From contig JAGPCO010000027.1 in NCBI GenBank assembly GCA_018058095.1, forward strand, positions 1-64,000: a DNA stretch of 64,000 nt. Direction: 5' to 3'. The stretch's first letter is position 1, and each line of letters starts with the position of its first letter. The position numbers and the translations under genes are program-made. The DNA is from Kofleriaceae bacterium (lineage in GTDB: Bacteria > Myxococcota_A > Polyangia > Haliangiales > Haliangiaceae). Below, piece after piece: positions 38,598 to 60,450 of the stretch. A model generated the notes under the pieces. That model saw only the letters and a program-made list of their open reading frames with translations, did no database searches and was not told the origin of the DNA.

Positions 38598-39506
38598 TCA
38601 GTGCCGGACCAGGAACTGGAAGCGGGTGGCGACCTCGAGCCGGACGTAGCCCCCCGGGATGGTGGCGTAGCCGACGCTGAGGCGATCGATGCTCGACGGC
38701 GGGCAGTCGATGGCCACGCAGATCGGGGCGCCGCTGAGCTCGGGCATGGCGGCCACCATCGCGGCCGGGATGGTCAGCTCGCCGGCGGCGTCCGGGGCCT
38801 GGCACTCGATGATCGCCTCGAGCGGCTGGCCGTGTCCGCCGTACGTGGTCGAGTTGATGGTGACCCGCACCTCGGATCCGTCGCCCGTCGGCGTCCAGCG
38901 CAGGACCTCGTCCTCGCCGTCGACCAGCACGATCTGGCCCTCGGCGTTGAGCGGCAGGTCGATGGCGTCGACGCCGCGCGCGCTGGTCGAGAAGGCCGGG
39001 ATGGCGCCGGCGCCGGCGGCGCTGGCGGTGACGCTGGCGCCGGGGCTGAACACGTCGACCAGGGCCGCGTCCTGGTAGTAGTAGACGCCGTTGGAGGACG
39101 GCTCGAGCGTGACCGGGCGGGTCAGGCCGGTCAGGGTGATGGGCCCGACCGCGCTGTAGGTCGGCCACGGATGACAGGTGGTGCCGACGCAGACGCCGTC
39201 GCACGGCGTCGGGCACTGGCTGCCGGGGAACTCGTACAGCGTACACGCCCCACTGGCCTGGGTCTGCTCCTGCCAGCGCACCTCGGGGCCGATCGCCGCC
39301 GACAGGTCCCCGTACGTGGTGTTGAGGTCGTAGGTGGACTCGAAGACCTTGATCGCGCCGAGCGGATCGCCGGCCGGCACCGGCATGGCGTCGGCGGTCG
39401 GGCCGGCGTCGGCGCGGTCGACGTCGCCGCCGTCGTCACCGCAGGCCACGAGGGCCGGGTGCAGCGCCAGCACGAGCACGCAGGCAGAGAGAGGCAGGGC
39501 ACGCAT
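38598..39506 (-). CDS. Lipoprotein, unknown function
   Basis: The product is 302 aa from ATG 39506. Signal peptide and lipobox LVAC are clear, followed by an Asp/Ala linker. The mature part has no domain that I recognise; it holds a Cys-rich stretch (CTLYEFPGSQCPTPCDGVCVGTTC) and a beta-rich C-terminus. It lies upstream of the second VWA gene on the same strand, so may be co-expressed with it. Confidence 0.65.
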   Translation of the reverse strand: MRALPLSACVLVLALHPALVACGDDGGDVDRADAGPTADAMPVPAGDPLGAIKVFESTYDLNTTYGDLSAAIGPEVRWQEQTQASGACTLYEFPGSQCPTPCDGVCVGTTCHPWPTYSAVGPITLTGLTRPVTLEPSSNGVYYYQDAALVDVFSPGASVTASAAGAGAIPAFSTSARGVDAIDLPLNAEGQIVLVDGEDEVLRWTPTGDGSEVRVTINSTTYGGHGQPLEAIIECQAPDAAGELTIPAAMVAAMPELSGAPICVAIDCPPSSIDRLSVGYATIPGGYVRLEVATRFQFLVRH

Positions 39507-39574
39507 GGGCACCCACGGAGCAAGCCGCGGGCCACGACCATCACGTGCGATCTCGCGGGATTCGAGTTGGTCGA

Positions 39575-41465: not shown

Positions 41466-42014
41466 TCAGCCACGGTATGGCCCGCCGCCGGCGAAGCGGC
41501 GGCTGAGCAGGAGGTCGGCCAGCTTGCCGCGCTGGCCGTCGTCGAGCAGGGCGTGGATGGCGCGGGTGGCGTCGATCAGCGCGGCGCGGACCTCGCCGGT
41601 GGTGGCGTCGACCCGGCCCAGGACCGAGGTCAGCGCGGCGTCGTCGAGGCTGGGCCCGCGCAGCGCCTCGGCCAGGTCGGCCCGCAGCGCGGCGCCGGCG
41701 TCGCGGCTGGCCACGAGGCGGGTCCGCAGCCGCTCGAGCTCGGCGACGATCGCGCGCTCCTGGGCCGGGGTCGCCTCGAGGTGGACCAGCGCCCGCCCGA
41801 GGATGACCCGCCGGGTCAGGTGGTGACGGCCGTGTCGCCATCCGCCGCCCCATCCATGGGCCTGATGGTGGTGCCACCCACCGCCGCAGGGGCCGCCTGG
41901 GCCCGCACCGTCCCAGCCGCCGGCGAAGGCATGGGCGTGGCGCCAGCGGCGTCGGTGCACGAGCTTGTGCAGGACGACAGCGGCGAGAACTCCGGCTCCG
42001 ATCGCGATCAGCAT
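41466..42014 (-). CDS. CpxP/Spy-like protein with a His-rich segment
   Basis: The product is 182 aa from ATG 42014, with an AGGAG ribosome-binding site. A hydrophobic N-terminus (MLIAIGAGVLAAVVLHK) is followed by a His/Gly/Trp-rich stretch (HHHQAHGWGGGW, HGRHH) and then about 100 residues of helix-rich sequence with LEATPAQERAIVAELERLRTRLV..., like the LTxxQ-type motifs of the Spy/CpxP family. Such proteins are periplasmic chaperones or metal sensors that hold back the sensor kinase. First gene of the operon with the regulator and kinase. Metal binding is inferred from the His content. Confidence 0.72.
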   Translation of the reverse strand: MLIAIGAGVLAAVVLHKLVHRRRWRHAHAFAGGWDGAGPGGPCGGGWHHHQAHGWGGGWRHGRHHLTRRVILGRALVHLEATPAQERAIVAELERLRTRLVASRDAGAALRADLAEALRGPSLDDAALTSVLGRVDATTGEVRAALIDATRAIHALLDDGQRGKLADLLLSRRFAGGGPYRG

Positions 42015-42082
42015 GAGGGGCTCCTTTGGTCTGTCCCCACCGTGCGACCGGCGTGTTGCGGGAGGTCGCGTCCGGACATGAA

Positions 42083-42116
42083 GAAACCTTGCGGCCGGCG
42101 GTGGGCGAAAACTTGC
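42083..42116. promoter_or_regulatory. Direct-repeat candidate operator
   Basis: GAAACCTTGC (42083-42092) and GAAAACTTGC (42107-42116) are direct repeats 24 bp apart, 69 bp upstream of the CpxP-like start. OmpR-family regulators bind direct repeats, so it is a candidate site for the regulator coded in the operon. The same gap also serves the divergent gene at 42151. Confidence 0.4.
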
Positions 42117-42150
42117 CCGCCCCGGCGGCGGCGGCGAGCCTGGGTTCACG

Positions 42151-42753
42151 ATGAGAGGCCCCTCGAGCTACGTGCATTGCCCGTCGTGCCAGCGCGCCTT
42201 CGACCTCGGCGCCGGGACCGGGTGCCCGCGCTGCGTCGCGCAGCCCGTCGCCTCGGCGCCGGCCGCGACCCCGCCGCGCGCCGCCACGCCGTCGCCGGCC
42301 GCGGTCGCGGCCACCCGCGTCTGCTACGTCCCGGTCGTGGCCAGCGTGACCGCCGCGCCTTCCGCTCCGGTGACCGCGGCGCGCGCCTGCCCGCGCGCCC
42401 GGATCACCGCCGCCACCGGCGAGCTGCTGGCCGCCATCTCCGACGCCGGCCCGGCCGACCTCGACGCCGTCCTGGCCGAGGGTGCCCTGGTGCCCGACGC
42501 CGCCGACGACCCGTGGGCGGCCCTGCTCTTGTCGGCCATCGTCGCCTCGATCGCCGAGCGGCGGGGCCGGCCGACCGCTCCTCTATTGATCGCGGCGCCG
42601 GCCCCGGCCGCCGCCCCGCCGCCAGCGTCGAGCCCGACCCCGCAGCAGGCCTTCTGGCTTGGGGTGCTGGTCGGGCTGCTGGCCCGGGTCGAGCGCCGGT
42701 TCGACCAGGTGCTCGATCTGACCCGGCGCCTGCCGCTCGACCGCCTGGGCTGA
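42151..42753 (+). CDS. Zinc-ribbon protein, unknown function
   Basis: The product is 200 aa. The N-terminus is a CxxC-x(n)-CxxC zinc ribbon (HCPSCQRAF...CPRC, residues about 9-28). An Ala/Pro-rich linker and a helical C-terminal part (AFWLGVLVGLLARVERRFDQVLDLTRRL) follow; the latter has one hydrophobic helix. Unlike its neighbours it points away from the metal-type operon. No family is recognised. The stop at 42753 is followed by a hairpin at 42763-42782. Confidence 0.55.
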   Translation: MRGPSSYVHCPSCQRAFDLGAGTGCPRCVAQPVASAPAATPPRAATPSPAAVAATRVCYVPVVASVTAAPSAPVTAARACPRARITAATGELLAAISDAGPADLDAVLAEGALVPDAADDPWAALLLSAIVASIAERRGRPTAPLLIAAPAPAAAPPPASSPTPQQAFWLGVLVGLLARVERRFDQVLDLTRRLPLDRLG

Positions 42754-42762
42754 CCGGCCGCC

Positions 42763-42782
42763 GGACCCCTCGCTGGGGGTCC
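42763..42782 (+). terminator. Hairpin after the zinc-ribbon gene
   Basis: GGACCCC-TCGCTG-GGGGTCC has a perfect 7-bp stem and a 6-nt loop, right after the stop codon. No T-tract follows, so it is only a possible terminator. Confidence 0.45.
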
Positions 42783-42832
42783 GCTGACCCCGGGTAGCGG
42801 CTACTACACCCACCGGATCGCGCGGTTGTCAC

Positions 42833-42850
42833 CGGCTAGCCGCCTAGCCG
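42833..42850. promoter_or_regulatory. Inverted repeat upstream of the cytochrome gene
   Basis: CGGCTAG-CCGC-CTAGCCG is a perfect 7-bp inverted repeat about 90 bp before the start of the triheme lipoprotein. CTAG is rare in this DNA, so two occurrences in one palindrome suggest a protein-binding site. Confidence 0.5.
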
Positions 42851-42883
42851 ATGACCGTCGTGACCGCCGGATTTCGGACGCAA

Positions 42884-42910
42884 GTGTCCGGAACTACGGA
42901 TCCCGGACAC
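42884..42910. promoter_or_regulatory. GTGTCCGG-N11-CCGGACAC operator-like palindrome
   Basis: Perfect 8-bp arms at 42884-42891 and 42903-42910 with an 11-bp spacer, about two and a half helical turns in total, 30 bp before the start codon. A further CGGAC half-site lies at 42876-42880. This is the layout of a homodimeric regulator site overlapping the promoter. Confidence 0.55.
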
Positions 42911-42939
42911 TGGCGCGAGGGTTGCGTAGAGCGCAGCCC

Positions 42940-45900
42940 ATGCGGACCACTCGACCGGCCACCCGGCCTCTGCTCACTACCCTAGGCGCCTTGCTGGTGC
43001 TCGGCTCGGCCGCCTGCGGGGGCGACGAGCCGACCATCCAGGCGCTGTACAACCCCAACACCCAGCGTGTCCTGATCGACATGGTCCGCGAGCTCGAGGA
43101 CGGGGAGACCATGATGGTCTCGGTCCGCCGCGGTAACTTCGGCCAGCTCGACTGCGCGGCCCAGGCCAGCGCGATGGACAGCGTGGTCGACCACGACGGC
43201 CTGCGCTTCTACGGCCCGGTGGTCGACCAGTCGCTGCTCGACCCGTTCTACGGCCCGGAGTGGGCATACGAGCCGACCCCGGAGATGCTGGCCGCGCTCG
43301 ACGCCGGCACCGACTCGATCATCGACTTCTGCGTGATGAAGGGCTCCGAGGTCGTCGAGCAGATCGAGTTCGATCTGTTCAAGGCGGTCGACAACGGCGA
43401 GAACGACGGCCTCGGCGGCAAGGCCGACGACAACGAGCACGGCGAGGTCGGGGTCAACTCGGCCCAGGCCTACGGCGAGCTGTGTGTCGGCCAGATGGGC
43501 GAGATCCCCTTCTTCGAGAAGCAGGGCGAGTTCAAGTACGGCACCTACAACTGCCTCGACTCGACCCCGATCCCGATGACCGTGACCGACGCCGGCGGCA
43601 ACGTCGACCGGCCCGACGGCGAGGTCAGCAAGTGCGACAAGCCGCAGTACATCTACTCGCTGTGCGAGCAGGGCCCGCGCGTGGCCTCGCGCATCAACGA
43701 CCAGGGCACCCGCTGGGTCCTGCTGTGCCGCAAGAGCATCGGCGGCCTGGCCTCGGACCAGTTCAACGACATCGCGATGATCGGGCACAACCCGTTCACC
43801 GGTAAGACCTGCTTCTTCCAGAACGCGCTGTACCAGAAGAAGGACGGCGGCAACGTGCCGCACCCGGCCGACCGCGAGAAGTCGACCAACCTGTGGTCGG
43901 GCGTACACGGCGGCCTCGGCAGCGGCATCCAGTGCAGCAAGTGCCACGACGCCGACCCGTTCGTGCACAGCCCGTGGATCGACGGGGCCAAGGACGCCAA
44001 CGGCCGCTCGGTGGTGCCGAAGATGGGCGAGGACCAGGACATGCCGATCGGCGCCAACGACGCGCCGTACTACCTGGTCAACCAGCGCGGTCAGAACTGG
44101 CGCGTCATCGACAGCCTGACCAGCCCGGCCGTCGCCGCCTGCACCAAGTGCCACCGCATGGGCAAGGGCGGCGAGTGGCAGCAGTGGGTCACCCGCATCG
44201 AGCAGACCGACGCGTCGTGGGAGAACATCGTCACCGACCACGGCAAGAAGTTCGAGAACGCGCGCTGGATGCCGACCGACCTGAGCGGCCTCACCGCCGC
44301 CACCTGGGCCAGCTCGCCGTACGCGACCGCCATCGCCGAGATCAAGCGCTGCGGCCAGAGCAGCGACTGCGCGTCCGAGAAGATCCCGACCGCGCCGGGC
44401 GGCAACACCGACGGCAACGGCCGCCTGCGTAACCCGGTCACCCTGTCCGACTCGACCCTGGCCACCCGCGCGGTCGGCATCCTCGCCGCCAGCGGCTGCA
44501 AGGACTGCCACACCTCGAGCCGCACCACCTTCCGCAAGTGGGCCGACCAGACCGCCGAGGCCGAGGGCCAGTGCCTGGCCAACCTGACCGGCGGCAGCGA
44601 GAAGCAGTCGACCCCGGCCGAGAACGAGGGCGTCGGCAAGGACGAGGTCAAGACCTACGGCCCGTACGACGTCGCCATCGGCGGCACCTTCAAGGCGCAG
44701 ATCACCGGCTCCGGTGACGCCGACCTCTACGTCAAGCGCTTCGCCAAGGCGACCAAGGACAACTACGACTGCCGCCCGTTCAAGACCGGCTCGCGCGAGA
44801 CCTGCGGCGCCGACCAGTTCAAGAACTTCGGCCCCGGCAAGTTCTACGTCACCATCATCGGCAAGTCGGCCAACACCAGCAAGTTCACCCTCAAGGTGAC
44901 CCACACCGCCAAGGGCGACGGCCAGCAGACCCCGGCCGAGGTCATCAGCTGCCTGCGCCAGGAGCCGCGCGAGGACTCGCCCTTCCTGCCGCACAAGCTC
45001 GGCATGTACACGGTGCTGTCGTCGCACGGCTGGTTCTCCGACCTGTTCCACGCCGCCTACAACGACGCCGAGAGCCGCGACGCCTGGGTCATCAACTTCG
45101 CCAAGTTCAAGGCCCGGACCTCGATGCCCAAGGGTAACCACCCGCGCCTGTCGCAGGCCGACGCCGATGTCGTCGTCGAGTGGTTCGCCCGCGGCGTGCC
45201 CAACCTCGACAGCGTGGTCCAGAACGACCCGCCGCCCACCACCTGCAGCAACTCGATCTCGTCGGAGATGTCGACCCACGCCAGCACGATGGCGACCCAG
45301 GGCTGGCGCGCGGTCAACGCCGAGCGCGGCCTGGCGATGTACGGCTGCAGCGGCAACGGCAACCCGATCTCCTGCCTCGGCAGCCTGGCTCGCGCCGGCA
45401 CCAAGGCGTACGGCGAGGGCTGGGAGCTGCTGGCCGGCGCCAAGCTCCGCATCCTGCGCGAGTTCAGCTTCAAGACCTTCTTCTGGATGCGGTCGTCGGC
45501 CGACGGTCGCTTCATCGGCAACGGCGCGTCGAGCTCGACCGGGGCGATGATCTCCGACCTGCAGCGCGACAAGGACATCCCGGTCCACGCCTCGTACGAC
45601 CCCGGCTTCTTCCCCGACAACTCGGGCTTCATGTTCCAGTCGACCCCGATCGGCGCCGGCTTCTGTGGCACCAACCTGCTGACCAGCAACCCGCGCGAGA
45701 TCAACTTCGGCGAGGCGCAGTGCTCGTCGGCCACCAACGTCGGCCTGTACCAGCACCTGGCCTCGGGCCTGGGCGGCGCCGACCACTACGCCATCAACGG
45801 CCAGTTCACCTCCGACAACGGCGGCGACGGCCCGGACGAGGAGCCCATCGCCGACTTCGGCTCGGACTCGACCATCAAGCTGACCGCCCTGGCCTACGAC

Positions 45901-46422
45901 GGCAACCACTACGTCGAGAAGACCCCGGTCACGACCGACTCGCCGTTCGAGGGTGACAACGTGCTCTCGCCGTCGAGCCGCCTGGTCATCAGCCGCCTGG
46001 CCGGCCCGAACAACAAGCAGCTCGGCTACGTCGTCCGCAAGATCAACGTGAGCGCGACCAGCCTGTCGACGACCGAGGTCGGTCGGTACTGCGTCAAGGG
46101 CGCCAAGCCGGCCATCTCGTTCGACGAGCGCTACGCGGTGCTGCACCACTACGTCGAGGAGGGCGACTTCGCCGAGCTGGGCTTCGCCTCGGCCAGCGAC
46201 GCCGGCTTCCAGGCGCTGCTCGACGCGGGCTCGGCCAACATCTACGTCCTCGACCTGGTCACCGGCGTCAAGACCCGCGTCACCAACATGAAGCCCGGCC
46301 AGTTCGCCCTGTTCCCGCACTTCCGCTCGGACAACTGGTTCTACTTCCTGGTCCGCGACAGCAAGTCCGGCAAGGAGTACGCGGTGGCCTCGGACGCCGC
46401 CCTGGTGCTGGCCGGCCAGTAA
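42940..46422 (+). CDS. Triheme cytochrome-type lipoprotein with PPC-like domain
   Basis: The product is 1160 aa from ATG 42940. It has a lipoprotein signal (lipobox-like GSAAC) and an acidic mature start. Three CxxCH heme sites are seen: CSKCH (Cys332), CTKCH (Cys401) and CKDCH (Cys520). A PPC-like beta domain lies at about 571-660 (YDVAIGGTFKAQITGSGDADLYVK... FYVTIIGKSAN). The rest is a large secreted domain without a match I recognise, with many Cys. The Lys/Asn content and uniform C-ending codons differ from neighbours and suggest high expression. It probably carries electrons at the outer surface. The operator-like palindromes upstream and the intrinsic terminator downstream show that it is a separate transcription unit. 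Confidence 0.85.
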   Translation: MRTTRPATRPLLTTLGALLVLGSAACGGDEPTIQALYNPNTQRVLIDMVRELEDGETMMVSVRRGNFGQLDCAAQASAMDSVVDHDGLRFYGPVVDQSLLDPFYGPEWAYEPTPEMLAALDAGTDSIIDFCVMKGSEVVEQIEFDLFKAVDNGENDGLGGKADDNEHGEVGVNSAQAYGELCVGQMGEIPFFEKQGEFKYGTYNCLDSTPIPMTVTDAGGNVDRPDGEVSKCDKPQYIYSLCEQGPRVASRINDQGTRWVLLCRKSIGGLASDQFNDIAMIGHNPFTGKTCFFQNALYQKKDGGNVPHPADREKSTNLWSGVHGGLGSGIQCSKCHDADPFVHSPWIDGAKDANGRSVVPKMGEDQDMPIGANDAPYYLVNQRGQNWRVIDSLTSPAVAACTKCHRMGKGGEWQQWVTRIEQTDASWENIVTDHGKKFENARWMPTDLSGLTAATWASSPYATAIAEIKRCGQSSDCASEKIPTAPGGNTDGNGRLRNPVTLSDSTLATRAVGILAASGCKDCHTSSRTTFRKWADQTAEAEGQCLANLTGGSEKQSTPAENEGVGKDEVKTYGPYDVAIGGTFKAQITGSGDADLYVKRFAKATKDNYDCRPFKTGSRETCGADQFKNFGPGKFYVTIIGKSANTSKFTLKVTHTAKGDGQQTPAEVISCLRQEPREDSPFLPHKLGMYTVLSSHGWFSDLFHAAYNDAESRDAWVINFAKFKARTSMPKGNHPRLSQADADVVVEWFARGVPNLDSVVQNDPPPTTCSNSISSEMSTHASTMATQGWRAVNAERGLAMYGCSGNGNPISCLGSLARAGTKAYGEGWELLAGAKLRILREFSFKTFFWMRSSADGRFIGNGASSSTGAMISDLQRDKDIPVHASYDPGFFPDNSGFMFQSTPIGAGFCGTNLLTSNPREINFGEAQCSSATNVGLYQHLASGLGGADHYAINGQFTSDNGGDGPDEEPIADFGSDSTIKLTALAYDGNHYVEKTPVTTDSPFEGDNVLSPSSRLVISRLAGPNNKQLGYVVRKINVSATSLSTTEVGRYCVKGAKPAISFDERYAVLHHYVEEGDFAELGFASASDAGFQALLDAGSANIYVLDLVTGVKTRVTNMKPGQFALFPHFRSDNWFYFLVRDSKSGKEYAVASDAALVLAGQ

Positions 46423-46520
46423 CCGGCACTCCCCGGCGGCGCGCACCGGAGGCGCCGACGGTCTTCGTTTTTTGGCGAGCGCCCAAAAATCTCCGGTGGT
46501 CGCATAGCGCTCACACGTCA

Positions 46521-46550
46521 CCCCAGGAATGGTCCTGGGGTTTCGTGTTT
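46521..46550 (+). terminator. Intrinsic terminator of the cytochrome gene
   Basis: CCCCAGGA-ATGG-TCCTGGGG (46521-46540) is a perfect 8-bp stem followed by TTTCGTGTTT. It is the clearest rho-independent terminator in the window, 100 bp after the stop codon. A second AT-flanked palindrome (TTTTTGGCGAGCGCCCAAAAA, near 46470-46490) precedes it. Confidence 0.75.
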
Positions 46551-46575
46551 TCGGCGCGCGCGCTACCGTCGACCG

Positions 46576-47487
46576 GTGAAGCGTGACCAGGTCGGAGGCT
46601 TCGAGCTGCTCGAGCGGCTCGGGACCGGGGGGCGCGGCGAGGTGTTCCTGGCCCGGCCCACGGGTGGGAGCGAGCTGGTCGCGCTGCGTCGGATCCACTC
46701 CTCGTTGCTGGCCGATCCGGCCCAGCGGGCGCGGGTGCTCGAGGCGGCGAGGACCGAGGTCGGGCTGCGCCACCCGGGCATCGTCGCGGTCATGGCGCCG
46801 GTGCTGCTCGACGACGACGTGCTGGTGCCGATGCAGTACGTGCCTGGCGTCGACCTGCGTGACCTGCTGGCGCCCGCACGGACCCGCCCGGCGCCTCCCG
46901 GCGTGGTGGCGCGGATCGGCGTCGCAGTCGGCGAAGCGCTCGAGGCGGCCGCCGCGTCGCCGGTCCCGGTCCTGCACGGCGACCTGCGGCCGGCGGCGGT
47001 GCGGCTCGGCCTCGACGGCGCGGTTCGGGTGCGTGACTTCGCCGGGCTGCACCCGGCGGCGGGGTACATGCGGAGTGGTTCGCCCCTGCTCGGTCGGTTC
47101 CGCTACTGGGCCCCGGAGTGGATCGAGGCAGGCCTCGACCAGCCACGTGACCTCGCCGGCCAGGTGTTCGCCATCGGCGGCATGTTGTGGGAGCTCAGCA
47201 CCGGCGCGCGCCTGTTCGGAGGGCAGGGCGACCTGGCGCAGCTCCAGGAGATCCTGACCGGGCCGATCCTCGCCCCGTCGAGCCGAGCCCCTGACGTGGC
47301 GCCGGCGCTCGACGCGGTCGTGCTGCGCGCGCTGGCCCGCGATCGCGGCGCGCGGTATCCCGCGCCGGCGGCGCTGGCCGAGGCGCTGCGGGCGGCGGCG
47401 GCGACGCATGGGTGGGACACGAGCGCCGCCGCGCTGGTGGCGTGGATCGCCGGCGCACGGGGGATGCCCCGGTGGGGGCCGCCGTGA
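46576..47487 (+). CDS. Pseudokinase of the Ser/Thr kinase family
   Basis: The product is 303 aa from GTG 46576. The overall kinase fold is recognisable (FELLERLGTGGRGEVFLAR, then RYWAPEW), but catalytic positions are changed: the VAIK lysine is Arg (VALRRI), HRD reads HGD, the Asn after it is replaced (HGDLRPAAV) and DFG reads DFAG. It is therefore probably inactive as a kinase and may act as a binding or scaffold protein. No sensor or membrane domain is present. It overlaps the next gene by 4 bp and follows a strong terminator. Confidence 0.8.
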   Translation: MKRDQVGGFELLERLGTGGRGEVFLARPTGGSELVALRRIHSSLLADPAQRARVLEAARTEVGLRHPGIVAVMAPVLLDDDVLVPMQYVPGVDLRDLLAPARTRPAPPGVVARIGVAVGEALEAAAASPVPVLHGDLRPAAVRLGLDGAVRVRDFAGLHPAAGYMRSGSPLLGRFRYWAPEWIEAGLDQPRDLAGQVFAIGGMLWELSTGARLFGGQGDLAQLQEILTGPILAPSSRAPDVAPALDAVVLRALARDRGARYPAPAALAEALRAAAATHGWDTSAAALVAWIAGARGMPRWGPP

Positions 47488-57918: not shown

Positions 57919-58452
57919 ATGAACCGCAAGACGACGCCCCTCCTCCTCCTCCTGGCCGCCTGTGGCGGCGCCTCGGCCACCAGCCAGCCGCGGGTCACCG
58001 CGGTCGGCGTGCCCGAGATCCGCAGCAGCGACGACCCGTGCGCGGGCCCCGAGGGCAGCTGCGCGGCCTGGCAGACGTGGCCGGCGATGACCGCTGCGCC
58101 GTTCAAGTCGGAGGGCCACCAGGACGCCTGGGTGTCGGTCCACGTCGAGCCGACGCACCTCGGCGCGTACCAGGCCGGGACCGGGCCGATGCCGGTCGGC
58201 ACCCGCATCGTCAAGTCCAACCACGGCGGCGGCGCCAAGCCCGGCGAGGTGGCGATGATCACCGTGATGGTGAAGATGGCGGCCGGCTACGATCCGGCAC
58301 ACGGCGACTGGTTCTACGGCGTGTACGACGCCGGCGGCAAGAAGGCCAAGATGGCCGGCAAGCTGGAGATGTGCCAGGAGTGCCACGACTCGTACGAGGA
58401 CCACGACTTCCTCGGCGGCGCGCCTGGCCTGTGGGGCACGCCGGTCCAGTGA
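57919..58452 (+). CDS. Cytochrome P460-type heme lipoprotein
   Basis: The product is 177 aa with a lipoprotein signal (lipobox LAAC). The mature part resembles the cytochrome P460 family: VSVHVEP...GTRIVKSNHGG, MVKMAAGYDPAHGDWFYGVYDA and a C-terminal heme c motif CQECH (Cys152-Cys155-His156). P460 proteins oxidise hydroxylamine or bind NO. No ribosome-binding site is seen. It is followed after 25 bp by the NrtS-like gene and then by the sigma-54 activator, so it is the first gene of a nitrogen-oxide type locus. Confidence 0.78.
   Translation: MNRKTTPLLLLLAACGGASATSQPRVTAVGVPEIRSSDDPCAGPEGSCAAWQTWPAMTAAPFKSEGHQDAWVSVHVEPTHLGAYQAGTGPMPVGTRIVKSNHGGGAKPGEVAMITVMVKMAAGYDPAHGDWFYGVYDAGGKKAKMAGKLEMCQECHDSYEDHDFLGGAPGLWGTPVQ

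Positions 58453-58767: not shown

Positions 58768-60450
<1,683 letters not shown>

Follow-up and report, generated by a model that had tools for sequence, protein, structure and literature searches.

A putative triheme cytochrome lipoprotein and a candidate sigma-54 promoter abutting its start codon in a Kofleriaceae bacterium

What does a long lipoprotein with three heme-binding motifs and almost no recognised family do, and how is its gene switched on, when that gene begins directly behind a cluster of inverted repeats? The question is raised by an open reading frame (ORF) in a 64,000-nucleotide stretch of DNA from a Kofleriaceae bacterium (assembly GCA_018058095.1, contig JAGPCO010000027.1, positions 1 to 64,000 of the forward strand), which we call the window. 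An earlier note on this DNA had proposed a surface electron carrier under a dedicated repressor or activator acting on palindromic operators. Our analysis supports an exported lipoprotein with conserved heme sites and dedicated regulation, but not the palindromes as simple operators. We consider it likely that the gene encodes a lipid-anchored triheme cytochrome that carries electrons, that a sigma-54 promoter abutting the start codon yields a near-leaderless mRNA, and that the gene belongs to a lipoprotein-rich set.

The promoter region and its inverted repeats

Alignment of the regions upstream of relatives brought out a -24/-12 element, which in the window reads TGGCGCGAGGGTTGC and lies 14 nucleotides (nt) before the ATG (Table 1). 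It was scored over 11 positions of what we take to be the sigma-54 consensus. All 14 promoters of genus-type relatives score at least 8 of 11 with GG-N10-GC at gaps of 13-17 nt before the ATG, a layout found in 0.8% of shuffled regions. These 14 promoters do not stand for 14 genomes, as two come from the own genome, L058 and L062 share one metagenome-assembled genome, and L063 stands for another one twice; the count excludes L067, whose contig begins inside the gene, and L079, whose start is not fixed. The element was also found in relatives whose gene is split. The N halves encoded divergently from their C halves carry a site 14-16 nt before the ATG in 8 of 8 cases, and among 12 N-half genes 8 have a site at gaps of 10-20 nt (shuffles 0.6%) and all 12 at gaps of 8-40 nt (shuffles 1.6%).

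The position of the promoter has consequences for the message. Given the -12 C at 42925, sigma-54 geometry would put the first transcribed base close to 42937, which would give a leader of about three bases; a promoter that abuts the start codon implies an mRNA with almost no leader. The gap in the window lacks the Shine-Dalgarno-like words GGAG, GAGG and AGGA, one of which occurs in 3 of the 14 genus-type gaps (L034, L062, L080). If transcription does start there, activator-dependent sigma-54 transcription and leaderless translation, which are usually separate, would work together. The own genome has one rpoN (one PF04552 match) and 62 matches to the sigma-54 activator domain PF00158, 54 of them at expectation values (E) below 1e-50. 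In the proposed mechanism, sigma-54 RNA polymerase would transcribe the cytochrome gene from the -24/-12 promoter next to the start codon. Since transcription by this polymerase needs an AAA+ enhancer-binding protein, such a protein would be required, and it probably binds the inverted repeat at 42828-42855. One gene for an enhancer-binding protein lies in the window 12 kb downstream of the cytochrome gene (58768-60450, + strand; activator domain 59479-59979). Several genus-type promoters (L058-L066) also share a short conserved stretch, GAGATCA, some 20 nt further upstream than the -24 box.

The earlier note had described two perfect palindromes here. Two inverted repeats are indeed present upstream of the gene, but neither is perfect, the full arms carrying one mismatch in each repeat. 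The first has arms of 12 nt (42828-42839/42844-42855; 92% complementary, loop 4, perfect core 7 nt) and the second arms of 13 nt (42879-42891/42903-42915; 92% complementary, loop 11, perfect core 9 nt). By expectation, 187 base pairs (bp) of the window should contain about 0.11 repeats as good as the first and 0.05 as good as the second, with loops of at most 14 (38 and 16 per 64 kb), so that each repeat is mildly unusual. The second looks private to this locus. Its pattern, GTGTCCGG-N6..14-CCGGACAC, has a single copy in the whole genome and recurs in 4 of 28 other genomes, on contigs other than those of the listed family matches, and its left arm was not found upstream of the aligned relatives. 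It was consequently rejected as a conserved operator, given its single genomic copy and the lack of palindromy at relatives.

The first repeat fits the activator site of a sigma-54 promoter. A site of the type AGCTAC-N4-GTWGCC lies 54-55 bp upstream of the -24 box in 8 of the 14 promoters (shuffle mean 0.085), a test that is partly circular because the consensus was drawn from the same promoters. The window copy sits at 77 bp, a shift of 22 bp or some two helical turns further, and agrees at 12 of 12 positions with a consensus partly defined with it. Exact copies of the first palindrome occur at five places in the genome, and besides the window only one of these (L130) lies near a sigma-54 site scoring at least 8; there the site (score 9) lies 74 nt downstream of the palindrome copy, and the ATG of a lipoprotein whose sequence we read as amidase-like follows 13 nt after it. 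Genome-wide counts do not support the first palindrome as the site of a large regulon. Conservation at orthologues had been set beforehand as the test of the palindromes; some relatives have a modified version of the first at a different distance, and the second was not recovered. For the activator site, the repeat at 42828-42855 is our leading candidate, and no more. The region that the earlier note had taken for simple operators appears to be mostly a sigma-54 promoter, missed by its reader, with the second repeat overlapping the -24 box.

A genome-wide class of candidate abutting promoters

The layout is not confined to this gene. The pattern TGGCNCN5TTGC-N10..20-ATG occurs at 61 places in the own genome against 2 for the reversed pattern, a count that includes chance places inside other genes and one probable duplicate near contig ends (C109, C168). 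With TTGCT and gaps of 0 to 30 nt there are 49 matches against 3 in the control. The 61 gaps are concentrated at 13 nt (25 places) and 14 nt (14), with the remainder at 11 nt (3), 15 nt (2), 16 nt (5), 17 nt (5) and 18-20 nt (7) and none at 12 nt. At gaps of 21-50 nt there are 32 matches (control 6), distributed over 30 different spacings; several belong to second ATGs of the same genes.

Genes at the favoured spacing are rich in exported products. Of 39 genes with gaps of 13-14 nt, 27 have products with a hydrophobic N-terminus and 20 pass a strict criterion for a lipobox, a number that is too low because this criterion overlooks the window protein; the corresponding numbers for the 22 genes at other gaps are 6 and 2. 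This suggests a set of near-leaderless sigma-54 transcripts for exported proteins, to which the cytochrome gene would belong. Among 235 genomes of the phylum (gaps 12-15 nt), the own genome has 41 places against 1 in the control, a genome of the same family (G019) 33 against 3, and one of the same order (G030) 18 against 0; most others have few, against about one in the control. A distant genome (G331) has 47 against 1, and its listed sites are near-identical, perhaps reflecting a repeated gene family or mobile element that carries the promoter. For Kofleriaceae-type myxobacteria in general, we put at about even the chance that sigma-54 promoters fixed 13-14 nt from the ATG give leaderless mRNAs, mainly for envelope lipoproteins including the triheme cytochrome. 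If true, enhancer-dependent transcription and leaderless translation would form one mode of gene expression serving the cell exterior. As a search rule, requiring a sigma-54 box 13-14 nt before the ATG retrieves dozens of genes, and about half of these encode lipoproteins.

Several members of the class deserve mention in their own right. A second putative lipoprotein gene in the window (38598-39503, - strand), with no Pfam or NCBIfam match, has a sigma-54 box 13 nt before its ATG (39504-39534). Six of the 39 genes (L099, L104, L106, L109, L114, L120) encode GKAD or GKED at residues 35-42, past the lipid cysteine, and L147 encodes GKGD, possibly a shared sorting or anchoring motif. Four genes with this promoter type (L112, L142, L144, L146; gaps 14 and 16) encode peptides of 53-63 amino acids (aa) that start with MKK and contain a Gly-rich stretch; on our reading they look like precursors of modified peptides.

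The protein, its relatives and its partners

The ORF encodes the 1160-aa protein with three CxxCH motifs that the earlier note had described. Its putative signal sequence, MRTTRPATRPLLTTLGALLVLGSAAC, was read together with the lipobox by eye from the sequence, and Cys26 is nearly invariant among relatives (alignment A1). A second alignment (A2) comprises 24 sequences, two of which are truncated ahead of the C-terminus; the two cysteines and the histidine of each heme site, along with H343, M444, M729 and H780, are invariant in 24 of 24. From the lipobox and the three conserved heme sites, the product is probably an exported, lipid-anchored c-type cytochrome. The PPC-like domain also proved sound: PF04151 matches aa 581-639 (E 4.2e-7, 31.2 bits, gathering cut-off 25.9), and this part also matches the solved structure 2luw_A (E 3.4e-9). 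Outside it, neither Pfam nor NCBIfam gave a family above cut-off and PHROGs gave none at E up to 0.01, in agreement with the earlier statement that most of the protein has no recognised family.

M729 is likely the axial ligand of heme 3. As the PPC domain stands between heme site 3 and M729, it sits inside the third cytochrome c domain, into which it was inserted or from which it was lost; in alignment A2 the region measures 107-110 residues in 12 genus-type proteins, 70-91 in four others and 0-4 in eight. AlphaFold2 models have a predicted local distance difference test score (pLDDT) of 78.6 and a predicted template modeling score (pTM) of 0.64 for the whole protein, and 83.4 and 0.64 for aa 29-546. 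In the model, the C-terminal part is a TolB/WD40-like propeller, in fold only and with no function implied; TolB chains rank first in comparison with structures of the PDB (2w8b_A, Z 16.9, root mean square deviation 3.2, 231 residues aligned). The N half gave no convincing fold match (best Foldseek E 9.2e-3; best structural Z 6.9 over 88 residues, to cytokine-receptor-type sandwich domains), and we make no fold claim for it. The protein would thus be an envelope-facing c-type cytochrome with a two-heme N-terminal module, a third cytochrome c domain interrupted by PPC, and a propeller. Its most likely role would be to transfer electrons on or close to the cell surface, the propeller serving as a docking or substrate face.

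In a search of 144 genomes, the own one among them, 57 match at E up to 1e-3, many of the matches covering the PPC domain alone. One-piece full-length matches are confined to the own genus; two genomes (G031, G095) match in two pieces without the PPC part, and a third (G043) likewise, cut by a contig end. Three paralogues are present in the own genome: one of full length (C193, 62%), and two that cover the C-terminal half and have a single CxxCH each. A scan of named genomes gave 39 loci, 37 of them myxobacterial-type or broadly labelled (Kofleriaceae, Polyangiaceae, Polyangia, Nannocystaceae, Sandaracinaceae, Labilithrix, Myxococcales, or just Deltaproteobacteria, proteobacterium or bacterium) and two weak and partial from gammaproteobacteria. 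These last two (L095, L096, one from Cellvibrio; frames of 571-574 aa) share the N-half region up to and around heme site 1. In Labilithrix and other Myxococcales, eight loci have the gene split into two adjacent, divergently oriented genes, one for the N half with hemes 1 and 2 and one for the C half with heme 3 and the propeller; some heme motifs there are CX3CH or CX4CH. We are dealing with an unnamed myxobacterial cytochrome family, missing from the curated libraries used, whose split and fused genes and PPC-in-cytochrome arrangement are a visible evolutionary record. Searches of the open-licence PubMed Central (PMC) literature for such cytochromes gave no title on this family.

Of 20 homologous loci, 12 have a gene for another heme protein immediately downstream of a family member and on the same strand; by the gene caller these proteins measure 411-698 aa, and ten have one CxxCH and two have two. 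No gene was called at L045 in this survey. Among five partner proteins scanned, two from the window's family pass the PPC cut-off (L037, L044) and a third does not (L036), and the other two (L048, L050) stay below it and have a C-terminal class I cytochrome c; no further family exceeded its cut-off in these five. No partner gene lies next to the window gene, which a kinase-like gene follows (Pkinase E 7e-16), or next to the C193 paralogue.

Table 1. Coordinates of features at the cytochrome locus (positions in the window)
Feature	Position	Strand	Remark
Short perfect palindrome GTAGC-G-GCTAC	42794..42804	.	Perhaps the extra half-site of the earlier note; possible further activator half-sites
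First inverted repeat, core GGCTAG-N4-CTAGCC (42834-42849)	42828..42855	.	Candidate enhancer-binding-protein site, 77 bp upstream of -24 box
Second inverted repeat	42879..42915	.	Right arm overlaps -24 element; palindromy not seen at relatives
Putative sigma-54 (-24/-12) promoter, GG-N10-GC	42911..42925	+	10 of 11 consensus positions; upstream alignment
Gap to start codon, 14 nt	42926..42939	+	Transcription start expected near 42937, leader about 0-3 nt; from sigma-54 geometry
Cytochrome gene ORF (ATG to stop)	42940-46422	+	1160 aa, putative triheme c-type cytochrome lipoprotein
Putative lipoprotein signal peptide and lipobox LGSAAC, lipid cysteine Cys26	42940..43017	+	Read from sequence
Heme site 1, CSKCH, aa 332-336	43933..43947	+	Sequence and alignment
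Heme site 2, CTKCH, aa 401-405	44140..44154	+	Sequence and alignment
Heme site 3, CKDCH, aa 520-524	44497..44511	+	Sequence and alignment
PPC domain, aa about 551-660	44590..44919	+	Between heme site 3 and its likely Met ligand
Met729 of SMPKG	45124..45126	+	Invariant 24/24; ligand role inferred from class I cytochromes c
Predicted beta-propeller domain, aa 828-1157	45421..46410	+	TolB/WD40-like fold; predicted structure comparison
Intrinsic terminator hairpin with T-rich tail	46513..46548	+	-24.6 kcal/mol, z -5.6

Competing readings, known systems and flanking features

The sigma-54 reading has to be weighed against a number of observations that count against it. Lone N halves (L085, L088, L089, L094) carry the site farther off, at 26-29 nt. 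Twelve relatives outside the genus type, of 26 promoters in all, have no abutting site; four of these (L070, L071, L073, L074) have one scoring at least 8 at 31-39 nt and the other eight none within 40 nt, from start codons chosen manually. Among 17 C-half and partner genes (L035-L053), a site was present in only two, with a score of 8 and gaps of 29 and 36 nt. The activator consensus fails at the conserved distance in the window and in L034, L058, L062, L064 and L065, and the activator site is not enriched genome-wide (50 places with at most one mismatch against 381 for the reversed pattern). Finally, 12 of the 39 genes at gaps of 13-14 nt lack a hydrophobic N-terminus, and the 61 places include some within other genes. 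The two inverted repeats near the start could instead be classical repressor or activator operators on a sigma-70-type promoter, the sigma-54 match being due to chance. We hold this to be very improbable: a consensus scan of 42000-47200, a kind of scan outside which other promoter types fall, found no sigma-70-like promoter, the sigma-54 motif is kept in 14 of 14 promoters and in split relatives and is enriched genome-wide, and the second repeat is private.

The nature of the protein invites other readings as well. It could be an enzyme with its active site in the propeller, fed with electrons by the hemes in the manner of cytochrome cd1-type or quinohemoprotein-like proteins, with the neighbouring heme protein as partner subunit. 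Proteins of cd1 type (NirS/NirN) have a cytochrome c domain followed by a beta-propeller, the Foldseek list is headed by a chain of hydrazine synthase (E 1.0e-6) and includes a weak match to NirN (E 5.5e-5, template modeling scores 0.14/0.29), and the downstream heme protein, fused to class I cytochrome c in L048 and L050, would suit such a complex. However, the propeller matches are general ones (TolB, WD40) at about 10% identity, catalytic residues were not identified, and the partner gene is absent next to both the window gene and the full-length paralogue. Furthermore, the protein differs from NirS/NirN in its three hemes and PPC insert, and neither family is among its Pfam or NCBIfam matches. 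We regard an enzyme as unlikely, though worth keeping in mind. Loss or degeneration of the hemes, which would leave a structural lipoprotein, is suggested by the variation of heme motifs 1 and 3 in Labilithrix-type relatives. But CX3CH and CX4CH are known variants of heme attachment, and with the cysteines and histidine of all three sites kept throughout alignment A2 we give this reading very little credence. Best supported is a cytochrome that acts as an electron carrier, or as the electron-feeding part of an enzyme, under activator-dependent sigma-54 control.

Lipid-anchored c-type cytochromes of the outer membrane are exemplified by OmcA/MtrC. The window protein matches their Pfam family (PF22113) weakly around heme sites 1 and 2 and differs in having three hemes instead of ten and a propeller; TIGR03507 is not among its NCBIfam matches. 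Membership was rejected (15.5 bits against a cut-off of 30; three CxxCH against a decaheme). On the side of regulation, sigma-54 control of cytochromes has a precedent in Geobacter sulfurreducens, whose RpoN regulon covers cytochromes used in extracellular electron transfer; a figure of that report underlines ribosome-binding sites, whereas the candidate promoter in the window lies right next to the start codon and the cytochromes belong to a different family (PMC2725144). In Myxococcus xanthus, a sigma-54 deletion is reported to be lethal (PMC12316311). Sigma-54 as a controller of the bacterial exterior, lipoproteins included, is an established idea (PMC3162934); the main text of that paper does not contain 'leaderless', 'start codon' or 'cytochrome', and the set described here is defined by promoter-to-ATG spacing. 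Promoters placed so that transcription starts at the ORF are known from Deinococcus-Thermus, where the -10 element is of the usual sigma type, in contrast to the activator-dependent sigma-54 type proposed here (PMC12340547). For Sinorhizobium meliloti, 171 leaderless mRNAs and 112 starts with sigma-54 motifs are reported in one genome, in passages that discuss them separately (PMC3616915). In titles and abstracts of the open-licence PMC literature we found no report of a sigma-54 promoter combined with a leaderless mRNA, which leaves its absence unproven, as papers that contain both terms do exist (such as PMC5243855 and PMC3847290). The cytochrome family and the fixed near-leaderless spacing over a lipoprotein-rich set look new.

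Two further statements of the earlier note concern the terminator and the codon use. The strong terminator that it had placed downstream is present as a hairpin; a second terminator-like match (46447-46467) folds no better than shuffled sequences (z +0.3). The codon use said to hint at heavy expression is the most biased (effective number of codons 24.4, the lowest) in a set of 51 called genes, each 200 codons or longer, drawn from four stretches of the own genome. This comparison is uncalibrated against ribosomal genes, no ribosomal operon having been recognised around the L3 match, and the bias fits high expression. Farther downstream in the window (57919-58452, + strand), a small putative lipoprotein with one CxxCH carries a cytochrome P460 domain (E 1.5e-11).

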